From Streptococcus ruminantium (GTDB lineage Bacteria > Bacillota > Bacilli > Lactobacillales > Streptococcaceae), in NCBI RefSeq assembly GCF_003609975.1, contig NZ_AP018400.1, positions 818,501 through 882,500 of the forward strand: a DNA stretch of 64,000 bases, written 5' to 3'. The notes beneath the pieces were generated by a model that saw only the letters and a program-made list of their open reading frames with translations, was not told the origin of the DNA and did no database searches. Both the position numbers and the translations under genes were made by a program. Of this stretch, positions 55,831 through 64,000 are shown piece by piece. How positions within the stretch are numbered: position 1 is the stretch's first letter; each line of letters begins with the position of its first letter.

Positions 55831-56580
55831 ATGAACAAAAAATTACACAAACTAATACTTACACTGCTTTCCATCTTTTTCTTATTTACTGAGCAAAATC
55901 ATGTATTTGCAATCGATCATTATGATGAAACAGATTCGGTAGTATTTGAGAATGATAGGGCATATTTTAAGTTTAATGATTCGGATATTACTAACTATAT
56001 TGTTAATAACTGGTGGACAAAAAATATTGTATTTACAGAAGCGGAAAAAAAGATTATGCATGATTATACCTATAACCAAGCTACTCCAATAAATACAGCA
56101 ATCGAAACTGTCAAAGGAGATATTGAACAACTATCTCCCGAAATAAAGCAACAGGTTGTTTTGCTAGATCAAGCAACCCATAAACTGGCAATTCCTTGGG
56201 ATATTATTGTTTATCGCTATGTGTATGAAACTTTTTTATTAGACTTAGGACTAACTCAGTCTGACTTAAATCAATATTATAAGGATAAGCGGTTTGATCC
56301 AGAGATATTGAGCAAAATAAAATCTGGGACTCAATATAAAAAATATAGTTTTATGAGTACTACTGCATTAAAATACGGAGCACTAACACACAGGCCTATA
56401 GAGCTACGATTGAGAGTTAAGCAAGGAAGTTATGCAGCATTTGTTGCACCCTATTCCTATTTTCCTTCAGAGCTTGAATTTCTCTTCCCAAGAGGAGGTC
56501 AATTGGAGGTGATAGGAGCCTACTTGTCGGAAGACAATAAAAGATTGAATATAGAAGTTCACTTTAAGGGGAGTTTATAA
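55831..56580 (+). CDS. Secreted SpyA-like (C3-family) ADP-ribosyltransferase
   Basis: This is a 249-residue secreted enzyme closely resembling SpyA of S. pyogenes, which ADP-ribosylates host cytoskeletal proteins such as vimentin and actin. The signal peptide ends about V-F-A (residue 27). The R-S-E catalytic set is complete: Arg129 in V-Y-R-Y-V, S-T-T at 176-178 in F-M-S-T-T-A-L, and the Glu pair E214-L-E216 in P-S-E-L-E-F-L-F-P-R-G. The end H-F-K-G-S-L also matches. The ATG at 55831 has a distant AAAGGG; TTG 55816 is an alternative. It stands alone among remnants, which suggests acquisition by transfer. Confidence 0.88.
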   Translation: MNKKLHKLILTLLSIFFLFTEQNHVFAIDHYDETDSVVFENDRAYFKFNDSDITNYIVNNWWTKNIVFTEAEKKIMHDYTYNQATPINTAIETVKGDIEQLSPEIKQQVVLLDQATHKLAIPWDIIVYRYVYETFLLDLGLTQSDLNQYYKDKRFDPEILSKIKSGTQYKKYSFMSTTALKYGALTHRPIELRLRVKQGSYAAFVAPYSYFPSELEFLFPRGGQLEVIGAYLSEDNKRLNIEVHFKGSL

Positions 56581-57136: not shown

Positions 57137-57173
57137 TGAAAACGTTGACAATTAAGAAATTGTATATTAAGAT
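57137..57173 (+). promoter_or_regulatory. cre site over the -35 of the cut-locus regulator
   Basis: TGAAAACGTTGACA (57137-57150) fits the cre consensus TGWAANCGNTNWCA at all 14 positions. Its end forms the -35 TTGACA (57145-57150), followed after 17 bp by TAAGAT (57168-57173). CcpA bound here would block transcription, so glucose should silence the regulator. Confidence 0.8.
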
Positions 57174-57218
57174 GATTTGTGTGATGAGATTTACAAATAT
57201 AGAATAGGGGGGGATAAC

Positions 57219-58085
57219 ATGGGAGTAGATAATTTGTTTTCAATTGGTAGAGCGGCTGCTATGAGTGGTGTTTCAACAAAAACATTGCGCTACTACGAAA
57301 GTCTAGATCTAATCCATCCTAAGCATATTTCCAGTGAGAATGGCTACCGCTATTATGATAAAGATGCTCTGTTGCTGATACCATTGATTAAGTATTATCA
57401 GCAAGTTGGGTTAAGTTTAAAAAGAATTAAAGAGCTGATTCATGTAGCTGGGTGCTCTACTCACTATCATCATCTCAAGAAAAGGCGCGACGAGATCAAT
57501 GCCGAGCGTGAAGAGCTATCTATCGCACTATCATCCGTGGATGATTGGTTAGAATTGATTGTTGAGGGTGAGATGTGCCTGCAAAGTAGGAAGCATCATC
57601 CTGGAGCAAACATAGAGCAGATGATTAGTGTAAAATATTATTCTGAGCAGGCAAGTTATTGTTATTTGGAACAGCCTTATAGCTATAATTACAAAGAGTC
57701 GATCATCAATTTGGAGTGGATTAGGCATTTAGAAGCACATCATTTAGAAGTTTCAGGGCCGGTTATTTTGAAATATAACTCTTATCTAAAAAAGATGAAG
57801 GGGGAAAGTAAATTCGCAACTATCTTGCAGCATTGTTTTCCAGAGTCGGAAACTTTTTCAAAATTTGGCGGTTTTATGGCTTTAACCTGCTATCACATTG
57901 GTCCACTAGAAAGTATTGCTGAGACATATAAGTATTTGCTACACTATGCAGAGAAGCATAAATATAGCCTAAAAGATGAGTGTTATGAACGCCATGTCAT
58001 TGATTATTGGGTAACTCAGGACCACAATGAGTTTGTAACAGAGATTATTATTCCTGTTGTCACGCAGGATGAGCTTTATCAATAA
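57219..58085 (+). CDS. MerR-family regulator of the cut locus
   Basis: This is a 288-residue regulator. The N-terminal MerR winged helix (about 5-75) shows I-G-R-A-A-A-M-S-G-V-S and T-L-R-Y-Y-E-S-L. A dimer coiled coil follows (about 80-115), then a large C-terminal effector-like domain of about 165 residues. The ATG at 57219 follows a ribosome binding site made of seven G (57207-57213). Its position before shell and CutC genes, and a 19-bp-spaced promoter downstream, suggest it activates the locus, perhaps with choline or a derivative as effector. Confidence 0.88.
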   Translation: MGVDNLFSIGRAAAMSGVSTKTLRYYESLDLIHPKHISSENGYRYYDKDALLLIPLIKYYQQVGLSLKRIKELIHVAGCSTHYHHLKKRRDEINAEREELSIALSSVDDWLELIVEGEMCLQSRKHHPGANIEQMISVKYYSEQASYCYLEQPYSYNYKESIINLEWIRHLEAHHLEVSGPVILKYNSYLKKMKGESKFATILQHCFPESETFSKFGGFMALTCYHIGPLESIAETYKYLLHYAEKHKYSLKDECYERHVIDYWVTQDHNEFVTEIIIPVVTQDELYQ

Positions 58086-58101
58086 AATAGTTAATAGATG
58101 G

Positions 58102-58143
58102 ACGGTTTGAAGAATGTAAAGAGCATCTTCAGGCCGTTTTTTA
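58102..58143 (+). terminator. Terminator of the MerR gene
   Basis: ACGGTTTGAAGA (58102-58113) pairs with TCTTCAGGCCGT (58126-58137), with G-U pairs in the middle, followed by TTTTTT. The regulator is thus a separate transcript from the shell genes. Confidence 0.8.
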
Positions 58144-58428
58144 TATTTTCCAGTTAACGAATCAGTTAATTAGGGGAGATGTCATGATGTTTGACTGATA
58201 AATAGTTGTTCAGTTCACAAAACTTTACCCCTAGGATAAAGTTTTGTGAGCATATTTCTTGCAAAAATAAAGATAATGTGCTTGTTTGTTAAAATTGTTA
58301 AAATTCTCTAATATATTTTTCCTTTAAAATACCTGAGTGAGAGTACTGCCATGTCATAGAAAAATAGTGCAATTATTTATACATTTTCAAAAAACTAAAA
58401 ATAATTTTGTAAAAATTAAAAAAAATGA
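58144..58428 (+). other. Intergenic hairpin region before the shell operon
   Basis: TCACAAAACTTTA (58215-58227) and TAAAGTTTTGTGA (58237-58249) form a perfect 13-bp stem with a 9-nt loop and no T run. This may be an operator or an RNA structure. The rest is AT-rich with no gene. Confidence 0.45.
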
Positions 58429-58459
58429 TTGACTTTGACTTTGTGGAAGGGTTTACAAT
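58429..58459 (+). promoter_or_regulatory. MerR-type promoter of the shell/cut operon
   Basis: TTGACT (58429-58434) and TACAAT (58454-58459) are separated by 19 bp, the stretched spacing typical of MerR-activated promoters. A leader of about 100 nt leads to the AAAGGAGG of the first shell gene. Confidence 0.6.
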
Positions 58460-58567
58460 GTTGTTATGTAGGGAATATAGAGATTTTTTACAATTGTGCA
58501 AAAAGTAAAATTTATATGTGTTTTTGTGTTAAATTTAGTATAAAAAATATATAAAGGAGGTAGTATC

Positions 58568-58846
58568 ATGAGTTCCGAAGCATTGGGAATGATTGAAACT
58601 AAGGGATTAGTCGGCTCAATAGAGGCGGCAGATGCAATGGTTAAAGCAGCAAATGTTACTTTAATCGGGAAAGAACATGTTGGTGGTGGTTTAGTAACCG
58701 TCCTTGTTCGAGGAGATGTCGGAGCAGTTAAGGCGGCAACAGATGCTGGTGCTGCTGCTGCACAACGAATCGGTGAGTTAGTCTCTGTTCATGTTATTCC
58801 ACGTCCGCACGGGGAAGTAGAGACAATCTTGCCTGGTTCTAAATAA
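58568..58846 (+). CDS. Microcompartment hexameric shell protein 1
   Basis: This is a 92-residue single-domain BMC (PduA/CcmK-like) protein that forms hexamers tiling the shell of a bacterial microcompartment. The opening A-L-G-M-I-E-T-K-G and the helix [11 protein letters not shown] are classic. The pore loop reads V-G-G-G-L (Gly39-41), a small-residue pore fit for small metabolites. It is the first gene of the operon. Confidence 0.95.
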
Positions 58847-58882
58847 TGGCTCTCTATTTTAAAGAGATTAGGAGGTATTTTT

Positions 58883-59878
58883 ATGGGACAAACGACAAGT
58901 ACTATTGCACAACAAAAAATGAATGAAACGACCAAAAAATTCCGTATTGCAGGTATTCGAAGCGGAATTGTTTCTGGCTTATTTTATGGATTATACTCCT
59001 TTGTTATTATGATTCTTCAGAGATTTGATCCGATTAAGTCAGCGGTGGGCATTTTAGCAGCTCCCTTTGTAATGGGCGCGATAAATGATTTTTTGGGTGG
59101 TTGTGTGCTCTTGCTTGCAGCGATAAGAAATGGGAAATTCAAAGAATTGGGGCGTACATTAGCTACTAAACCAGGGAAAATTATGTTGCTCGGCTATATT
59201 TTGGGCGGTCCAGTAGCAAATGGTGCTTACCTAGTTGGTCTTTATTTAGCGGGAGCTTTTGCTATTCCAATTTCAGCGACAACGGCTGCGTTTGGTGCTC
59301 TTTTCTCAGCTATTTTCTTAAAACAAAAATTAAACATGCGCGTTGTTGCTGGGATGTTGATGTGTGTGGCTGGCGCGGTTGTTATCAATCTGGTAAAACC
59401 TGAGGGAGCTCCTAATTTTACACTAGGAATTATCCTGGCTGTAGTGGCTGCAATATGCTGGGGATTGGAAGGAACGATTTCAAGTTTTGGTGGTGCAATG
59501 CTTGACTCAGAAGTTACTGTAACCCTACGTCAATTGGTTTCTGGTTTAATTCAAATGGTTATCATTGTCCCAATTATTGGAGCGACGGGTCTATTTACAG
59601 CAACCTTAACTTCACCGTTTTTAGTATTTCTCCTACTGATTTCCGGTACATTGGTTGGTATTTCATATATGGAATGGTATCGTTCAAATGCTATGGTTGG
59701 TACTGCGATTGGTATGTCCTTAAATATTACCTATGCTTTCTGGGGTGTTCTACTTAGTGTTTTATTCCTTGGACAAGCAATTACAACAACTATTGTTGTT
59801 GGTTCGTTGGTGATTATCACAGGTGCTATTCTAGTAACGACGAATCCACTAGATTTTTTTAGAAAAGATGAGGTATAG
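58883..59878 (+). CDS. DMT/EamA-family transporter of the cut locus
   Basis: This is a 331-residue membrane protein with about ten helices and the two-repeat layout of the drug/metabolite transporter superfamily. A charged N-terminus of about 25 residues precedes the first helix. Many cut loci carry small EmrE-type transporters instead. Here a ten-helix member lies between shell genes and probably takes up choline or exports trimethylamine or ethanol; this is an inference from position. GGAGG precedes the ATG. Confidence 0.88.
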   Translation: MGQTTSTIAQQKMNETTKKFRIAGIRSGIVSGLFYGLYSFVIMILQRFDPIKSAVGILAAPFVMGAINDFLGGCVLLLAAIRNGKFKELGRTLATKPGKIMLLGYILGGPVANGAYLVGLYLAGAFAIPISATTAAFGALFSAIFLKQKLNMRVVAGMLMCVAGAVVINLVKPEGAPNFTLGIILAVVAAICWGLEGTISSFGGAMLDSEVTVTLRQLVSGLIQMVIIVPIIGATGLFTATLTSPFLVFLLLISGTLVGISYMEWYRSNAMVGTAIGMSLNITYAFWGVLLSVLFLGQAITTTIVVGSLVIITGAILVTTNPLDFFRKDEV

Positions 59879-59881
59879 TCC

Positions 59882-60184
59882 ATGAAATTATTACCAGCAA
59901 GAACAGCAGTGCTAAATTATATGAGTACAGTAGAAGAGGCGGATGTATTTCAAGTTATGTCAGCCTTGGAACCTCTATTTGGCAGTGAAAAACAGTTCAG
60001 AGAGGACTTGTTTTTAGAACATTTGATGTCGTTAGAGTGCAATGGTTATCTCGTTCAGACGGGATTTAATTTGGATGAAAACGGAAAGTTGAGAATCCGC
60101 TATCAAATAAATGATGATGGAAGATACGCAGTGGAAAAATATATTGCAAAAGAATTTCGAAATGTAGAAGGAGGAGCGATATGA
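59882..60184 (+). CDS. Small winged-helix-like protein of the cut locus
   Basis: This is a 100-residue soluble protein with predicted helix-helix-helix then two strands (Y-L-V-Q-T-G-F-N-L-D and K-L-R-I-R-Y-Q-I-N), which resembles a winged helix. I do not recognise a family. It begins 3 nt after the transporter and overlaps the second shell gene by 4 nt (ATGA), so it is made with the microcompartment. It might be a regulator or an assembly or cargo factor. Confidence 0.8.
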   Translation: MKLLPARTAVLNYMSTVEEADVFQVMSALEPLFGSEKQFREDLFLEHLMSLECNGYLVQTGFNLDENGKLRIRYQINDDGRYAVEKYIAKEFRNVEGGAI

Positions 60185-60477
60185 GGTATCATGGTGGTCA
60201 GGCATTAGGACTTGTGGAAACAGTTGGTTTGGTGCCAGCTTTGGAAGCATGCGATAAGATGTTAAAAGCCAGCAATGTCAAATTGATTTCCTACGAGAAT
60301 GTTGGTTCTACATTGGTTACAATCATGGTAGTTGGTGATGTAGCTGCTGTTGAGGCTGCTGTTGAGGCTGGAGCACGTGCAGCTGAAGCAATTGGTAAAT
60401 TAACTGCTCATAATGTAATGCCAAGGCCAATCTCTTCTGTTGGGGACATGGTTTCTGTACATGATATTGATAATTGA
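60181..60477 (+). CDS. Microcompartment hexameric shell protein 2
   Basis: This is a 98-residue BMC-domain protein (A-L-G-L-V-E-T-V-G-L-V-P-A-L-E-A). The pore loop is V-G-S-T (Ser43). The C-terminus is a short acidic tail. It is coupled to the preceding small gene and followed 14 nt later by a third shell gene with GGAGGAG. Confidence 0.95.
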   Translation: MRYHGGQALGLVETVGLVPALEACDKMLKASNVKLISYENVGSTLVTIMVVGDVAAVEAAVEAGARAAEAIGKLTAHNVMPRPISSVGDMVSVHDIDN

Positions 60478-60491
60478 TAAAGGAGGAGACA

Positions 60492-60809
60492 ATGGAAAGA
60501 TATCAAGCAATTGGTGCTGTGGAGACATTTGGTCTTGTATATGCACTTGAGGCAGCAGATGCAATGGTAAAGGCTTCAGATGTTGAAGTAATTGCTTATG
60601 TCAACACTGCATCCGGTTATATTGCAGTTATTGTCCAAGGTGAAACGGCAGCTTGCAAGACAGCTGTTGATGCGGGAGTTAGTGCGGTAGAAAAAATGGG
60701 GACTGAGGTATATAGTAGTGTTGTCATTCCAGGACCACATGAAGATTTAAAGAAAATCATCGATCGCTACTCATTAGAAATGATGTTCCCAGAAGAAGCA
60801 ACAGAGTAG
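60492..60809 (+). CDS. Microcompartment hexameric shell protein 3
   Basis: This is a 105-residue BMC-domain protein (A-I-G-A-V-E-T-F-G-L-V-Y-A-L-E-A-A-D). The pore loop N-T-A-S-G (38-42) differs from the other two shell proteins. A C-terminal tail of about 20 residues (R-Y-S-L-E-M-M-F-P-E-E) extends beyond the usual fold. The ATG at 60492 has GGAGGAG six bases before it; the TTG at 60474 overlapping the previous gene is rejected. Confidence 0.95.
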   Translation: MERYQAIGAVETFGLVYALEAADAMVKASDVEVIAYVNTASGYIAVIVQGETAACKTAVDAGVSAVEKMGTEVYSSVVIPGPHEDLKKIIDRYSLEMMFPEEATE

Positions 60810-60815
60810 GAAAGT

Positions 60816-62186
60816 GTGAACGAAATGAGATATATTGACAAAGATTTGGAATCAATTCAAGAAATAAGAAATTTGCTTCTGAATGGTCAAATGTCTTTTG
60901 TTCACTTGCAGAAGTACAGTCAAAGTGATTTGGATGTCGTGACTTCTATCTTTATCAAAACTTTGCTGGACAAAACAAGCGACTATGTCCACGAGTTTGT
61001 GACTGGTAATGATTACGGTGTGGAAGAGGATGAGCATTTTTTATGTACACATTTTCTGAAACGTTTCGAGGAAACTCTTCAGAAGGAGTCATATATCGGT
61101 ATCATCGGTGGAAATTCTACAGAAAAAGTTATCGAAATTGGAGCGCCGATGGGGGTTGTTGCGGTTTTGTTACCAGCTCGCCCAACCTTTACCTTATTGG
61201 TTAATGTCTGTTTACTAGCGATGAAAACAGGAAATTCTCTGGTATTCATTGCTAATCGGCAGTCAACAAGGTCAACTCTTCATAGTTTGAAAAAACTAAT
61301 TACGCTTGCCGAAGAGTCTGGTTATCCTGAAGATGGTATCAGTCTAGGTGAGACAATTAGCGATGCAGGAATACTGGAATTGTTGGCCAGCGATAAGGTT
61401 TCTCTACTCATCAATATTGGCTGCCCAGAATACATTTCAAATAAGTTTGTCACCAATATACCTTTATTATATGGTGGGGATTCATCTGGACCAGTATTTG
61501 TAGAAAGAACCGCAAACATCGAGAAAGCTGTTAGTGATGTCATTCATTCGAGAAGTTTTCAAAATGGTATCTTACCCGGTGCAGAGCAATTTCTAGTTAC
61601 TGAAAATGTTATTGCAGATCAAATCAAAGATAGCCTAGAAAAGAATGGAGCTCATTTGCTGACGGAGTCAGAGACTAGGAAGCTGATTGCATTTCTAACA
61701 GCTTCAGAGAAGAATATTAAGGAAAATTATATTGGGAAGTCAGCTATCTGGTTGGCAGAAAAATCCGGCATATCTGTTCCGGCAGAAACAAAGGTTCTTG
61801 TATCTGTCCAAGATTACATGAATGAAGAGGATTTTTTTAGTCGAAAATTACTCTGTCCAGTGATTGTAGTCTACTTGGAACCGGATTGGACCTTAGCTTG
61901 TGTTAAATGTATGAACTTGCTAGATGAGTTAAAAATGGGACATACGTTAACCATACATTCCAAAGATTGGAAAATCATCAGAGAGTTTGCCTTAGTCAAA
62001 AAGGTTGGGAGAATTGTGGTAAATGCACCTACAGTTTGTGTCGCTACAGGTATTGTTTCTAACTTCCCGACATCATTGATATTGGGTGGTATCACAACTG
62101 GTAAAGGATATAGCTCGGAAAATATCACACCGAAACATTTGACTTATACCCGTCAGGTTGGTTTTGAAGTTAATAATAAGTCATGA
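60816..62186 (+). CDS. Aldehyde dehydrogenase homologue without catalytic Cys
   Basis: This is a 456-residue member of the CoA-acylating aldehyde dehydrogenase family found in microcompartments. The segment that normally reads F-D-N-G-x-x-C-x-x-E-Q is F-Q-N-G-I-L-P-G-A-E-Q: Pro254 replaces the nucleophilic Cys. It is thus probably inactive as a dehydrogenase and may be structural or regulatory. A second, active enzyme would be expected past the window end. GTG 60816 has AGGA close by; the ATG at 60825 is possible. Confidence 0.88.
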   Translation: MNEMRYIDKDLESIQEIRNLLLNGQMSFVHLQKYSQSDLDVVTSIFIKTLLDKTSDYVHEFVTGNDYGVEEDEHFLCTHFLKRFEETLQKESYIGIIGGNSTEKVIEIGAPMGVVAVLLPARPTFTLLVNVCLLAMKTGNSLVFIANRQSTRSTLHSLKKLITLAEESGYPEDGISLGETISDAGILELLASDKVSLLINIGCPEYISNKFVTNIPLLYGGDSSGPVFVERTANIEKAVSDVIHSRSFQNGILPGAEQFLVTENVIADQIKDSLEKNGAHLLTESETRKLIAFLTASEKNIKENYIGKSAIWLAEKSGISVPAETKVLVSVQDYMNEEDFFSRKLLCPVIVVYLEPDWTLACVKCMNLLDELKMGHTLTIHSKDWKIIREFALVKKVGRIVVNAPTVCVATGIVSNFPTSLILGGITTGKGYSSENITPKHLTYTRQVGFEVNNKS

Positions 62187-62218
62187 ATTGATTGTTCGAA
62201 AGAGAGGAAATATTCAAT

Positions 62219-64000
62219 ATGGATATGAAGGAATTTACAGCTAAGCTGGAAGAAGCTACGAAGAAACTAAGTGCGGAAGAACGTGCATCACTGGTAAAAA
62301 TTTTCCAAAGTGTTTCTGATGATATTACAAAGCCAGAAGTTAGTTTTGCAAATGTAGAACCGCTTGTGTCAGAAGGTACAGATGTACCAGAGGGAATTAC
62401 ACCTCGATTGCAGGCCTTAAAAAACCAATATTTGAAAGCTCAACCAACGATCTCTTTAATTCGTGCGGTAAACCTGACACGAATTTCTAAAGAGAATGAA
62501 GGTATGCCAAAAGCAATCCTACGCGGAACTGCTTTCAAGGAATTTTGTAAAATTGCTCCAGTAGTCATTCAGGATAATGAATTATTGGTAGGTGCACCGA
62601 ATGGTGGCGCACGTTTTGGTGCCTTTTCTCCAGATATTTCATGGCGTTGGCTTCGCGATGAAATTGATACGATTTCAACTCGTCCGCAGGACCCATACGC
62701 CTTGTCTGAAGAAGATAAAAAGGTTCTAAGAGAAGAAATTTTCCCATATTGGGAAGGACGTTCTGTAGATGAAGCCTGTGAGTCACAATACCGTGAAGCG
62801 GGTGCTTGGGAACTTTCTGGTGAATCATTTGTCTCTGATTGTTCTTATCATGCTTGTTCTGGTGGTGGTGACTCAAATCCAGGATACGATGTGGTAGGGA
62901 TGAAAAAAGGTATGCTAGATATTAAGGCTGAAGCAGAAGCCCACCTAGCAAAACTGGACTATGCTAATCCAGATGATTTGGAGAAAATCTATTTCTACAA
63001 ATCGCAAATTCTAACAGCAGAAGGTGTTATGATTTATGCGAAGCGTATGTCTGAGTACGCAGCAGAATTAGCCGCAAAAGAATCCAATCCAAAACGCAGA
63101 GCAGAATTGGAGATGATTTCTCGCGTCAATGCCAATGTTCCTGCGCATAAACCAGAGACTTTCTGGGAAGCGATGCAATACGTTGTAACAATTCAGCACC
63201 TACTACTCTGTGAAGAAAACCAGACAGGTCTTTCAATTGGTCGTGTTGACCAGTATATGTATCCGCTTTATAAAAAGGATATTGAATCTGGCCGGATGAA
63301 TGATTATCAAGCTTTTGAATTAGCCGGCTGTATGTTTATTAAGATGTCAGAAATGATGTGGTTAACATCAGAGGGATCTTCTAAATTCTTTGCAGGTTAT
63401 CAACCATTTGTAAACATGTGTGTCGGTGGGGTAACACGTGAAGGGCGTGATGCAACAAATGATTTGACCTATCTTTTGATGGATGCGATTCGCCATGTGA
63501 AGGTTTATCAACCAACCTTGGCAACTCGTATCAATAACAAATCGCCACGTAAGTACTTGAAGAAAATTGTTGATGTTGTCCGTGCAGGAATTGGTTTCCC
63601 TGCGTGTCACTTTGACGACGCTCACATCAAAATGATGTTGGCAAAAGGTGTTTCAATGGAGGATGCACGTGATTACTGCTTAATGGGATGCGTAGAACCA
63701 CAAAAATCGGGTCGTCTCTATCAATGGACATCAACAGCCTACACTCAATGGCCAATCTTAATCGAAACAACGTTGAACCATGGTATTCCATTATGGTACG
63801 GAAAACCAGTTACTCCAGATATGGGACCTCTTGAGCAATACAAAACATTTGAACAATTTGAAGCCGCTGTTAAAGAGACAATCAAGTATGTTACCAAATG
63901 GACTTCTGTTATGACCGTCATCTCTCAGCGTGTCCAACGTGAGTTAGCACCGGCACCATTGATGTCCATGATGTATGAAGGTACGATGGAAAATGGTCGT
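62219..64000 (+). CDS. cutC: Choline trimethylamine-lyase CutC (3' end outside window)
   Basis: CutC is a glycyl-radical enzyme that splits choline into trimethylamine and acetaldehyde inside the microcompartment. The window holds 594 codons. Active-site residues match those of Desulfovibrio CutC at a constant offset of two: Tyr210, Asp218 ([10 protein letters not shown]), Cys491 and Glu493 (G-C-V-E-P), Thr504 and Tyr508. The C-terminal glycyl-radical loop lies outside. The N-terminus lacks the long extension of enterobacterial type II enzymes. AGAGGAAA precedes the ATG. The activase CutD should follow. Confidence 0.95.

Follow-up and report, generated by a model that had tools for sequence, protein, structure and literature searches.

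A 64,000-nucleotide stretch of the single-contig, 2.09-Mb genome of Streptococcus ruminantium (hereafter the window; G000:C1:818501-882500) carries at its 3' end the 5' half of a complete choline-degradation locus, which reaches 14 kb beyond the window end. The locus is a glycyl-radical enzyme microcompartment locus of type 1 (GRM1, or type I cut). The true streptococcal distinctions all lie past the window end, and they are a terminal gene for a pyruvate:flavodoxin oxidoreductase (PFOR), the lack of the accessory proteins GrpU and PduS, and an altered form of CutD, the activase of the choline trimethylamine-lyase CutC. We regard it as probable that this is a streptococcal subtype of GRM1, in which a tethered PFOR feeds CutD and takes the place of GrpU and PduS.

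Three sets of sequences underlie the comparisons. One scan returned 291 CutC relatives, from which 80 loci were kept, nine streptococcal and 71 others (L020-L090); these named loci were taken with 10-kb flanks, so that a PFOR sited as in streptococci may fall outside. A set of 284 Streptococcus genomes was searched with profiles for CutC, PFOR and the families of bacterial microcompartment (BMC) shell proteins. The order-level set comprised 395 Lactobacillales genomes, with CutD in 31 non-streptococcal genomes and four streptococci.

PFOR, CutD and the accessory proteins

PFOR (TIGR02176) was found in 14 of the 284 Streptococcus genomes, one in each: the 13 genomes with a CutC above cut-off, and G085. 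BMC proteins above cut-off occur in 48 of the genomes, 34 of which have no PFOR. The enzyme thus accompanies these loci rather than microcompartments in general. The adjacency of PFOR and locus was directly seen in 12 of the 13 genomes, the exception being G086, where PFOR and cutC are on separate contigs and each locus end is at a contig end. In the S. ruminantium genome the gap between the last BMC-H gene and the PFOR gene was inspected and holds no terminator-like hairpin; a 20-pair hairpin begins 8 bases past the final base of the PFOR stop codon. The Fe-S cysteines of the enzyme are intact, with two CxxCxxCxxxC motifs and Cys816, 819, 844 and 1077, which we take to be the ligands of the third cluster. 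In the draft genome G275 (L134; G275:C4:80637-87755) the PFOR gene is broken into several reading-frame pieces, and farther downstream there is another cutC, which is partial and has an in-frame stop. In G085 the PFOR gene is oriented divergently to a locus made up of a small gene and of genes for a glycyl-radical enzyme, for a short activase with no auxiliary cysteines and for the shell protein PduB. We discarded the idea that this neighbour is a non-microcompartment locus, since PduB follows. With its HbpS-like gene, enzyme of unassigned substrate, activase and PduB, it is a second streptococcal type of glycyl-radical microcompartment (L130, G085:C51), and its contig ends at the PduB locus.

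Outside Streptococcus, PFOR is present in 28 of the 31 order-level genomes with CutD, the nearest distance to cutD on the same contig being about 66 kb. Among the 71 named non-streptococcal loci, a PFOR lies in the stretch taken only at L044, from a Lactobacillus metagenome-assembled genome. The search for PFOR in the named genomes covered 50 of the 80, nine of the other 30 being streptococcal, and part of its non-streptococcal matches, 40 in number, served as controls. One of these is that of L044; the other 39 are about 60 kb or more away from cutC or on another contig, which leaves some room for neighbourhood where the genome is a draft.

The 12 intact streptococcal PFORs, two of which (G000 and G012) are near-copies, all end in a strict C-terminal tail motif ([LIF]xxI[ILF]xxLx.), a short stretch of hydrophobic pattern. 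Their identity is 0.70 in the body, 0.18-0.26 in the linker and 0.47 in the tail block. The strict motif ends none of the 40 control PFORs, L044's included, nor that of G085, and it ends four of 608 open reading frames (ORFs) of at least 150 residues that matched no locus protein, a set in which spurious frames are counted too. A looser form of the motif closes the third reading-frame piece of the broken PFOR of G275. It also ends 30 of the 608 unmatched ORFs, all 22 streptococcal ORFs matching aldehyde dehydrogenase (AldDH) and 90 of the 99 other AldDH-matching ORFs. Encapsulation peptides are described as a short terminal stretch or predicted helix behind a poorly conserved linker (PMC6325248; this 2019 review and the other papers cited are represented here by parts of their text). 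The PFOR tail looks like a putative targeting peptide of this encapsulation type.

The activase is altered in the same genomes. Both auxiliary CxxCxxCxxxC motifs are present in all 97 non-streptococcal CutD rows (87 distinct loci), and neither is present in any of the 22 streptococcal rows (13 genomes, nine seen twice). The CutDs of five clusters without a shell keep both motifs. Streptococcal CutD retains C62, C68, C72 and C117, and a fifth cysteine lies in a longer segment, giving five auxiliary cysteines compared to 8-9 in other GRM1. The ligand pattern of two-cluster ferredoxins is a guide to cluster assignment; by this pattern, one cluster of the streptococcal enzyme would be without three of its four ligands, while the other would keep three.

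GrpU and PduS were sought with profiles made from 54 GrpU ORFs and from PduS ORFs, and a GrpU match was counted above 100 bits. Neither profile matched in the streptococcal loci. Genome-wide, GrpU is absent from the 13 streptococcal genomes and from that of L044, and two positive-control genomes matched. The own genome has eight BMC matches, each in a separate short ORF, so that no tandem BMC-T such as PduT is encoded. The 71 named non-streptococcal loci have GrpU in 64 cases, PduS in 15 and at least one of them in 69; L044 and L067 (a 6-kb contig) have neither. All 26 shell-bearing order-level loci have GrpU. The remaining five of the 31 have neither GrpU nor a shell set and are clusters of cutC, a transporter, a 100-residue gene and cutD. 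Judged by identical CutD, 10 of the 26 are already among the named loci, which leaves 87 distinct loci; GrpU, PduS or both are found in 85 of these, and one of the two exceptions is truncated. The pore motif published for GrpU, GxCPQN/H, is visible in the alignment (PMC6325248). According to the same source, GrpU occurs in about 85% of GRM1 and PduS/PduT in about 25%, common and not defining.

Proposed electron supply to CutD and its alternatives

The LicB-like transporter would bring choline in, and CutC inside the shell would split it into trimethylamine and acetaldehyde. The AldDH, the phosphotransacylase (PTAC) and the iron-containing alcohol dehydrogenase (Fe-ADH) would then convert acetaldehyde to acetyl-phosphate and ethanol, recycling the cofactors internally. 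This is the established chemistry of GRM1, assigned here from gene content. In the mechanism that we propose, PFOR would oxidize pyruvate and hand low-potential electrons to CutD, via flavodoxin or directly, and CutD would put the glycyl radical on CutC. The C-terminal tail on its variable linker may tether PFOR to the shell or to the enzyme core. PFOR would substitute for GrpU, the Fe-S relay of the shell, and for PduS, and the electron-input domain of CutD would have been reduced to match. We infer that PFOR is the electron source for CutC activation because it is co-encoded with the shell and tailed, because GrpU and PduS are missing, and because CutD is reduced. Activases of the CutD type need a low-potential electron, which flavodoxin supplies to the pyruvate formate-lyase activase of Escherichia coli (PMC6325248). 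A flavodoxin is encoded in all 13 streptococcal cut genomes. The strongest form of the proposal, which we offer as a serious but tentative possibility, places PFOR in the shell lumen, where it would have made pore-bound GrpU unnecessary, with CutD losing one of its auxiliary clusters. If the proposal is true, GrpU and PduS would elsewhere be the electron inlets for CutD-type activases, and PFOR would be their non-homologous replacement.

Several observations weigh against this proposal. Other glycyl-radical enzymes occur in many PFOR-less streptococci, and activation as such therefore needs no PFOR; we would argue that the requirement is peculiar to the compartment. GRM2 loci have no GrpU or PduS, yet both cysteine motifs are retained in each of the three GRM2 CutDs inspected. 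At L044, which is complete and has neither accessory protein, the PFOR is adjacent but divergent and tail-less, and CutD is intact. The absence of PduS from the streptococcal loci comes from a search at the loci only, not genome-wide. The looser tail motif also ends 33 of 70 EutN and 24 of 57 MerR ORFs outside Streptococcus; it was rejected as a mark of cargo for want of specificity, so that only the strict form is informative. The hydrophobic moment of the tail is only modestly above that of shuffled sequences (fractions 0.001-0.16), and this weakly unusual value was not accepted as proof of amphipathicity. Finally, the 12 intact streptococcal PFORs group together in a single clade among Lactobacillales PFORs (SH-aLRT 100, quick tree), and the counts thus reflect essentially one evolutionary event.

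The main competitor, in our estimate unlikely, is a cytosolic PFOR, carried along with the locus since streptococci lack another strong route from pyruvate to flavodoxin, whose tail docks flavodoxin or some other partner. The PFORs of L044 and G085 fit it, as they are adjacent, divergent and tail-less and lend encapsulation no sequence support, and so does the flavodoxin gene of the own genome, which is far from the locus. It is opposed by the strict tail, which of all the PFORs inspected only the in-operon streptococcal enzymes have, and by the form of that tail, a short stretch after a variable linker as in encapsulation peptides.

We consider it improbable that the PFOR, the loss of GrpU and the changes in CutD are unlinked accidents of one ancestral streptococcal locus that is otherwise an ordinary GRM1. 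The single clade speaks for such accidents, as the 13 genomes do not count as 13 independent events. PFOR remains next to the locus, however, although several streptococcal genomes share no neighbours in the few kilobases of flank compared, and the tail is conserved where the linker is not. Moreover, at L044 and in G085 the only PFOR of the genome likewise adjoins a glycyl-radical microcompartment locus. A single origin with the streptococcal PFORs was rejected for L044 (p-AU 0.019) and not rejected for G085 (p-AU 0.305); these approximately unbiased (AU) tests used eight of the 12 streptococcal rows and 20 of the 40 controls, with groups defined after the first tree was viewed. Over 12 genomes, the distances of PFOR follow those of CutC (Mantel r 0.73, 0/5000 permutations). 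Between G000 and G012 the locus proteins are 93-100% identical (PFOR and CutC 99%) and UvrB 88%, and this difference suggests that locus and PFOR were recently transferred together.

A PFOR serving carbon metabolism, with extra acetyl-CoA and redox balance from pyruvate in cells growing on choline and no part in CutC activation, is equally improbable: the enzyme makes acetyl-CoA, the expected product of AldDH and substrate of PTAC, but choline cleavage alone is redox-balanced through acetaldehyde dismutation, and in these genomes the remodelled CutD and the missing GrpU and PduS both suggest electron input.

Gene content and order of the locus

The eight genes that an earlier note on this DNA had named from the sequence of the window are in the place and order it gave (57219-64000), and its identification of a streptococcal choline-degradation microcompartment locus holds: CutC and CutD score above their curated cut-offs, and the shell and enzyme set is present (Table 1). 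The note had looked to the downstream contig for the shell vertex gene, a PTAC and the second AldDH, and had made its reading depend on an activase and on a glycyl-radical C-terminus of CutC; all were found past the window end, the AldDH there being intact. The genes that typify GRM1 content, for BMC-H, BMC-P, AldDH, PTAC, ADH, EutP, EutJ and EutQ, are present without exception.

Table 1. Features of the choline locus in window numbering, which is continued past 64000 (L009 position + 53499; L010 position + 67499)
Feature	Position	Strand	Evidence
MerR-family regulator (MerR HTH + GyrI-like effector domain)	57219..58085	+	Pfam MerR_1 1.3e-16, GyrI-like 7.4e-9
MerR-type promoter TTGACT-19 nt-TACAAT	58429..58459	+	upstream of first BMC-H
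BMC-H shell protein	58568..58846	+	PF00936 6.4e-30
DMT-superfamily transporter, LicB-like, predicted choline importer	58883..59878	+	EamA 1.5e-14
100-residue winged-helix protein, PadR-like fold	59882..60184	+	structure model
BMC-H shell protein	60181..60477	+	PF00936 8e-26
BMC-H shell protein (start codon unsettled)	60489..60809	+	PF00936 9.4e-22
Catalytically dead acylating AldDH homologue	60816..62186	+	TIGR02518 280.6 bits, cut-off 620
cutC, choline trimethylamine-lyase	62219..64765 (window part to 64000)	+	TIGR04394 1534.8 bits, cut-off 1050
cutD	64839-65825		TIGR04395 435.4 bits, cut-off 360
EutS-like BMC-H	to 66194		
EutP/PduV	66191-66637		
Fe-ADH	66634-67767		
202-residue protein without family	67818-68426		
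EutJ	68404-69246		
EutN vertex protein	69256-69555		
EutQ	69568-70200		
BMC-H with extension of about 120 residues	70217-70819		
Acylating AldDH, intact	70835-72490		
PTAC	72502-73212		
Three near-identical BMC-H genes	73226-74094		
PFOR, 1209 residues	74205-77834		TIGR02176 1731.8 bits, cut-off 911
Terminator-like hairpin	77842-77885		20 pairs

The note's claim of a gene order peculiar to the locus did not survive. The run of transporter, 100-residue gene, BMC-H, BMC-H, AldDH homologue, cutC and cutD recurs, with its order unchanged, in 66 of the 71 named non-streptococcal loci and is ordinary for GRM1. The exceptions (L023, L037, L055, L067 and L088) are two Hungatella loci without the transporter/100-residue pair at that place, one locus whose AldDH is in two pieces, one in which AldDH gave no match and one truncated contig. 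The enterobacterial locus (GRM2) had been the wrong yardstick, GRM1 being the fitting one, and the EamA-type transporter and the 100-residue gene, both held to be novelties of layout, belong to the common run. The sole sequence match of the transporter in the PDB at E 0.01 is LicB (7b0k, 2.9e-25); LicB-like and part of the conserved seven-gene run, it was dropped as a marker of novelty.

The 100-residue protein has no Pfam match at E 0.001 (15.3 bits against Pfam PadR, cut-off 27). A confident structure model upholds the winged-helix fold assigned to it earlier, with PadR/MarR-type folds among the best structural matches. Its gene and that of the transporter are kept together in the five clusters without a shell set (L203-L207, five Enterococcus genomes: cutC, DMT transporter, 100-residue winged-helix gene and cutD), one of which, L207, has one BMC-H and one PTAC match elsewhere in the stretch. 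The pair is doubled in tandem at L054, L057, L060, L064, L080 and L090 (Clostridium and relatives). A strict partnership with the transporter is weakened by G075 and G275, which keep the 100-residue gene in its usual place and have the transporter gene immediately after PFOR.

CutC is 849 residues long, as intact-looking and as short at its N-terminus as had been proposed. The TIGR04394 match begins at residue 61, residues 21-846 align with the solved choline trimethylamine-lyase 5fau, and Asp219, Cys492, Glu494 and glycine 824 (RVAGYSA) occupy conserved places; these are presumably D216, C489, E491 and G821 of the literature. A second glycyl-radical enzyme of the same genome (G000:C1:1149321-1151693, minus strand) scores 525.6 bits against the CutC model, under the cut-off, and similar enzymes are common in streptococci without PFOR. 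The AldDH homologue before cutC is dead, as the term pseudo-aldehyde dehydrogenase had implied: aligned to the intact AldDH of the same locus, it has Pro at the position of the catalytic Cys. A second AldDH with Cys replaced by Ser or Pro is a hallmark of GRM1 (PMC4207490). The expectation of a potential trimethylamine producer is likewise in keeping with the complete gene set, and S. dysgalactiae strains are reported to form trimethylamine from choline (PMC7019844), ATCC 12394 being also listed (PMC6200775). Streptococcal trimethylamine formation, the GRM1 locus and its dead AldDH are already known.

The best NCBIfam model of the MerR protein is NF053782 (choline utilization transcriptional activator), at 226 bits and under the cut-off of 450. 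The TTGACT/TACAAT element with its 19-nt spacer precedes the first BMC-H gene in all 11 streptococcal genomes examined (of 13; G075 and G275 left out). Such a spacer is typical of MerR-type promoters, and the element is compatible with control by the MerR of the locus. In G136, G052, G043 and G015 the upstream stretch taken has no merR match, yet the promoter is kept. The first BMC-H gene is separated from merR by 482 bp, in which an inverted repeat with perfectly matched 12-bp arms, a 9-nt loop and no T-run occupies 58216-58248. The three BMC-H genes before PFOR are identical in 265-268 of 270 bases in pairwise comparison. Just 5' of the choline locus, at 55834-56580 on the plus strand, is a gene whose product looks secreted and contains an ADP-ribosyltransferase exoenzyme domain (PF03496, 5.3e-38).

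Relation to known systems

The closest known relatives are the GRM1 loci of Clostridium, Enterococcus, Vagococcus and others, which share with the streptococcal loci the short-N-terminus CutC, CutD, the dead second AldDH, the AldDH, PTAC, Fe-ADH, EutJ, EutP, EutQ, EutN, the BMC-H set and the backbone gene order. The streptococcal loci differ in having no GrpU, no PduS, a terminal PFOR and a CutD with five auxiliary cysteines. The GRM2 loci of Klebsiella, E. coli and Proteus share the choline lyase and its activase and, as far as the review describes them, are also without GrpU and PduS, and their CutC has an N-terminal extension of about 350 residues (PMC6325248) that the streptococcal CutC does not have. 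In Klebsiella, SMR/EmrE transporters stand a few genes after cutD, whereas the streptococcal locus has the DMT transporter; the GRM2 CutDs inspected, with both cysteine motifs, differ from the streptococcal ones as well. The choline importer LicB resembles that transporter, which here belongs to a catabolic locus and for which choline transport is predicted.

The streptococcal PFOR is like NifJ/YdbK-type enzymes in its TIGR02176 score and Fe-S cysteines. It differs in its place inside a microcompartment locus and in a tail absent from the 40 controls. Blaschkowski reportedly described, in 1982, pyruvate:flavodoxin oxidoreductase as a donor in the route by which the pyruvate formate-lyase of E. 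coli is activated. For GRMs, the 2019 review, in the part used here, treats the electron supply of the activase and the roles of GrpU, PduS and PduT as open and allows for "other unidentified factors" (PMC6325248). The literature searched, part of it in excerpt, holds no link of PFOR/NifJ to a cut or GRM locus, no tailed PFOR and no CutD without the second auxiliary motif; within that literature, all three are apparently new. Set beside these systems, the streptococcal loci resemble a replacement experiment made by nature, in which both accessory proteins are gone, a pyruvate-driven electron source that may bear a targeting tail has been gained and the Fe-S input of the activase is reduced. 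Trimethylamine formation by these streptococci may accordingly depend on PFOR, and the comparison is relevant to the way in which organelles of this kind activate their oxygen-sensitive key enzyme.

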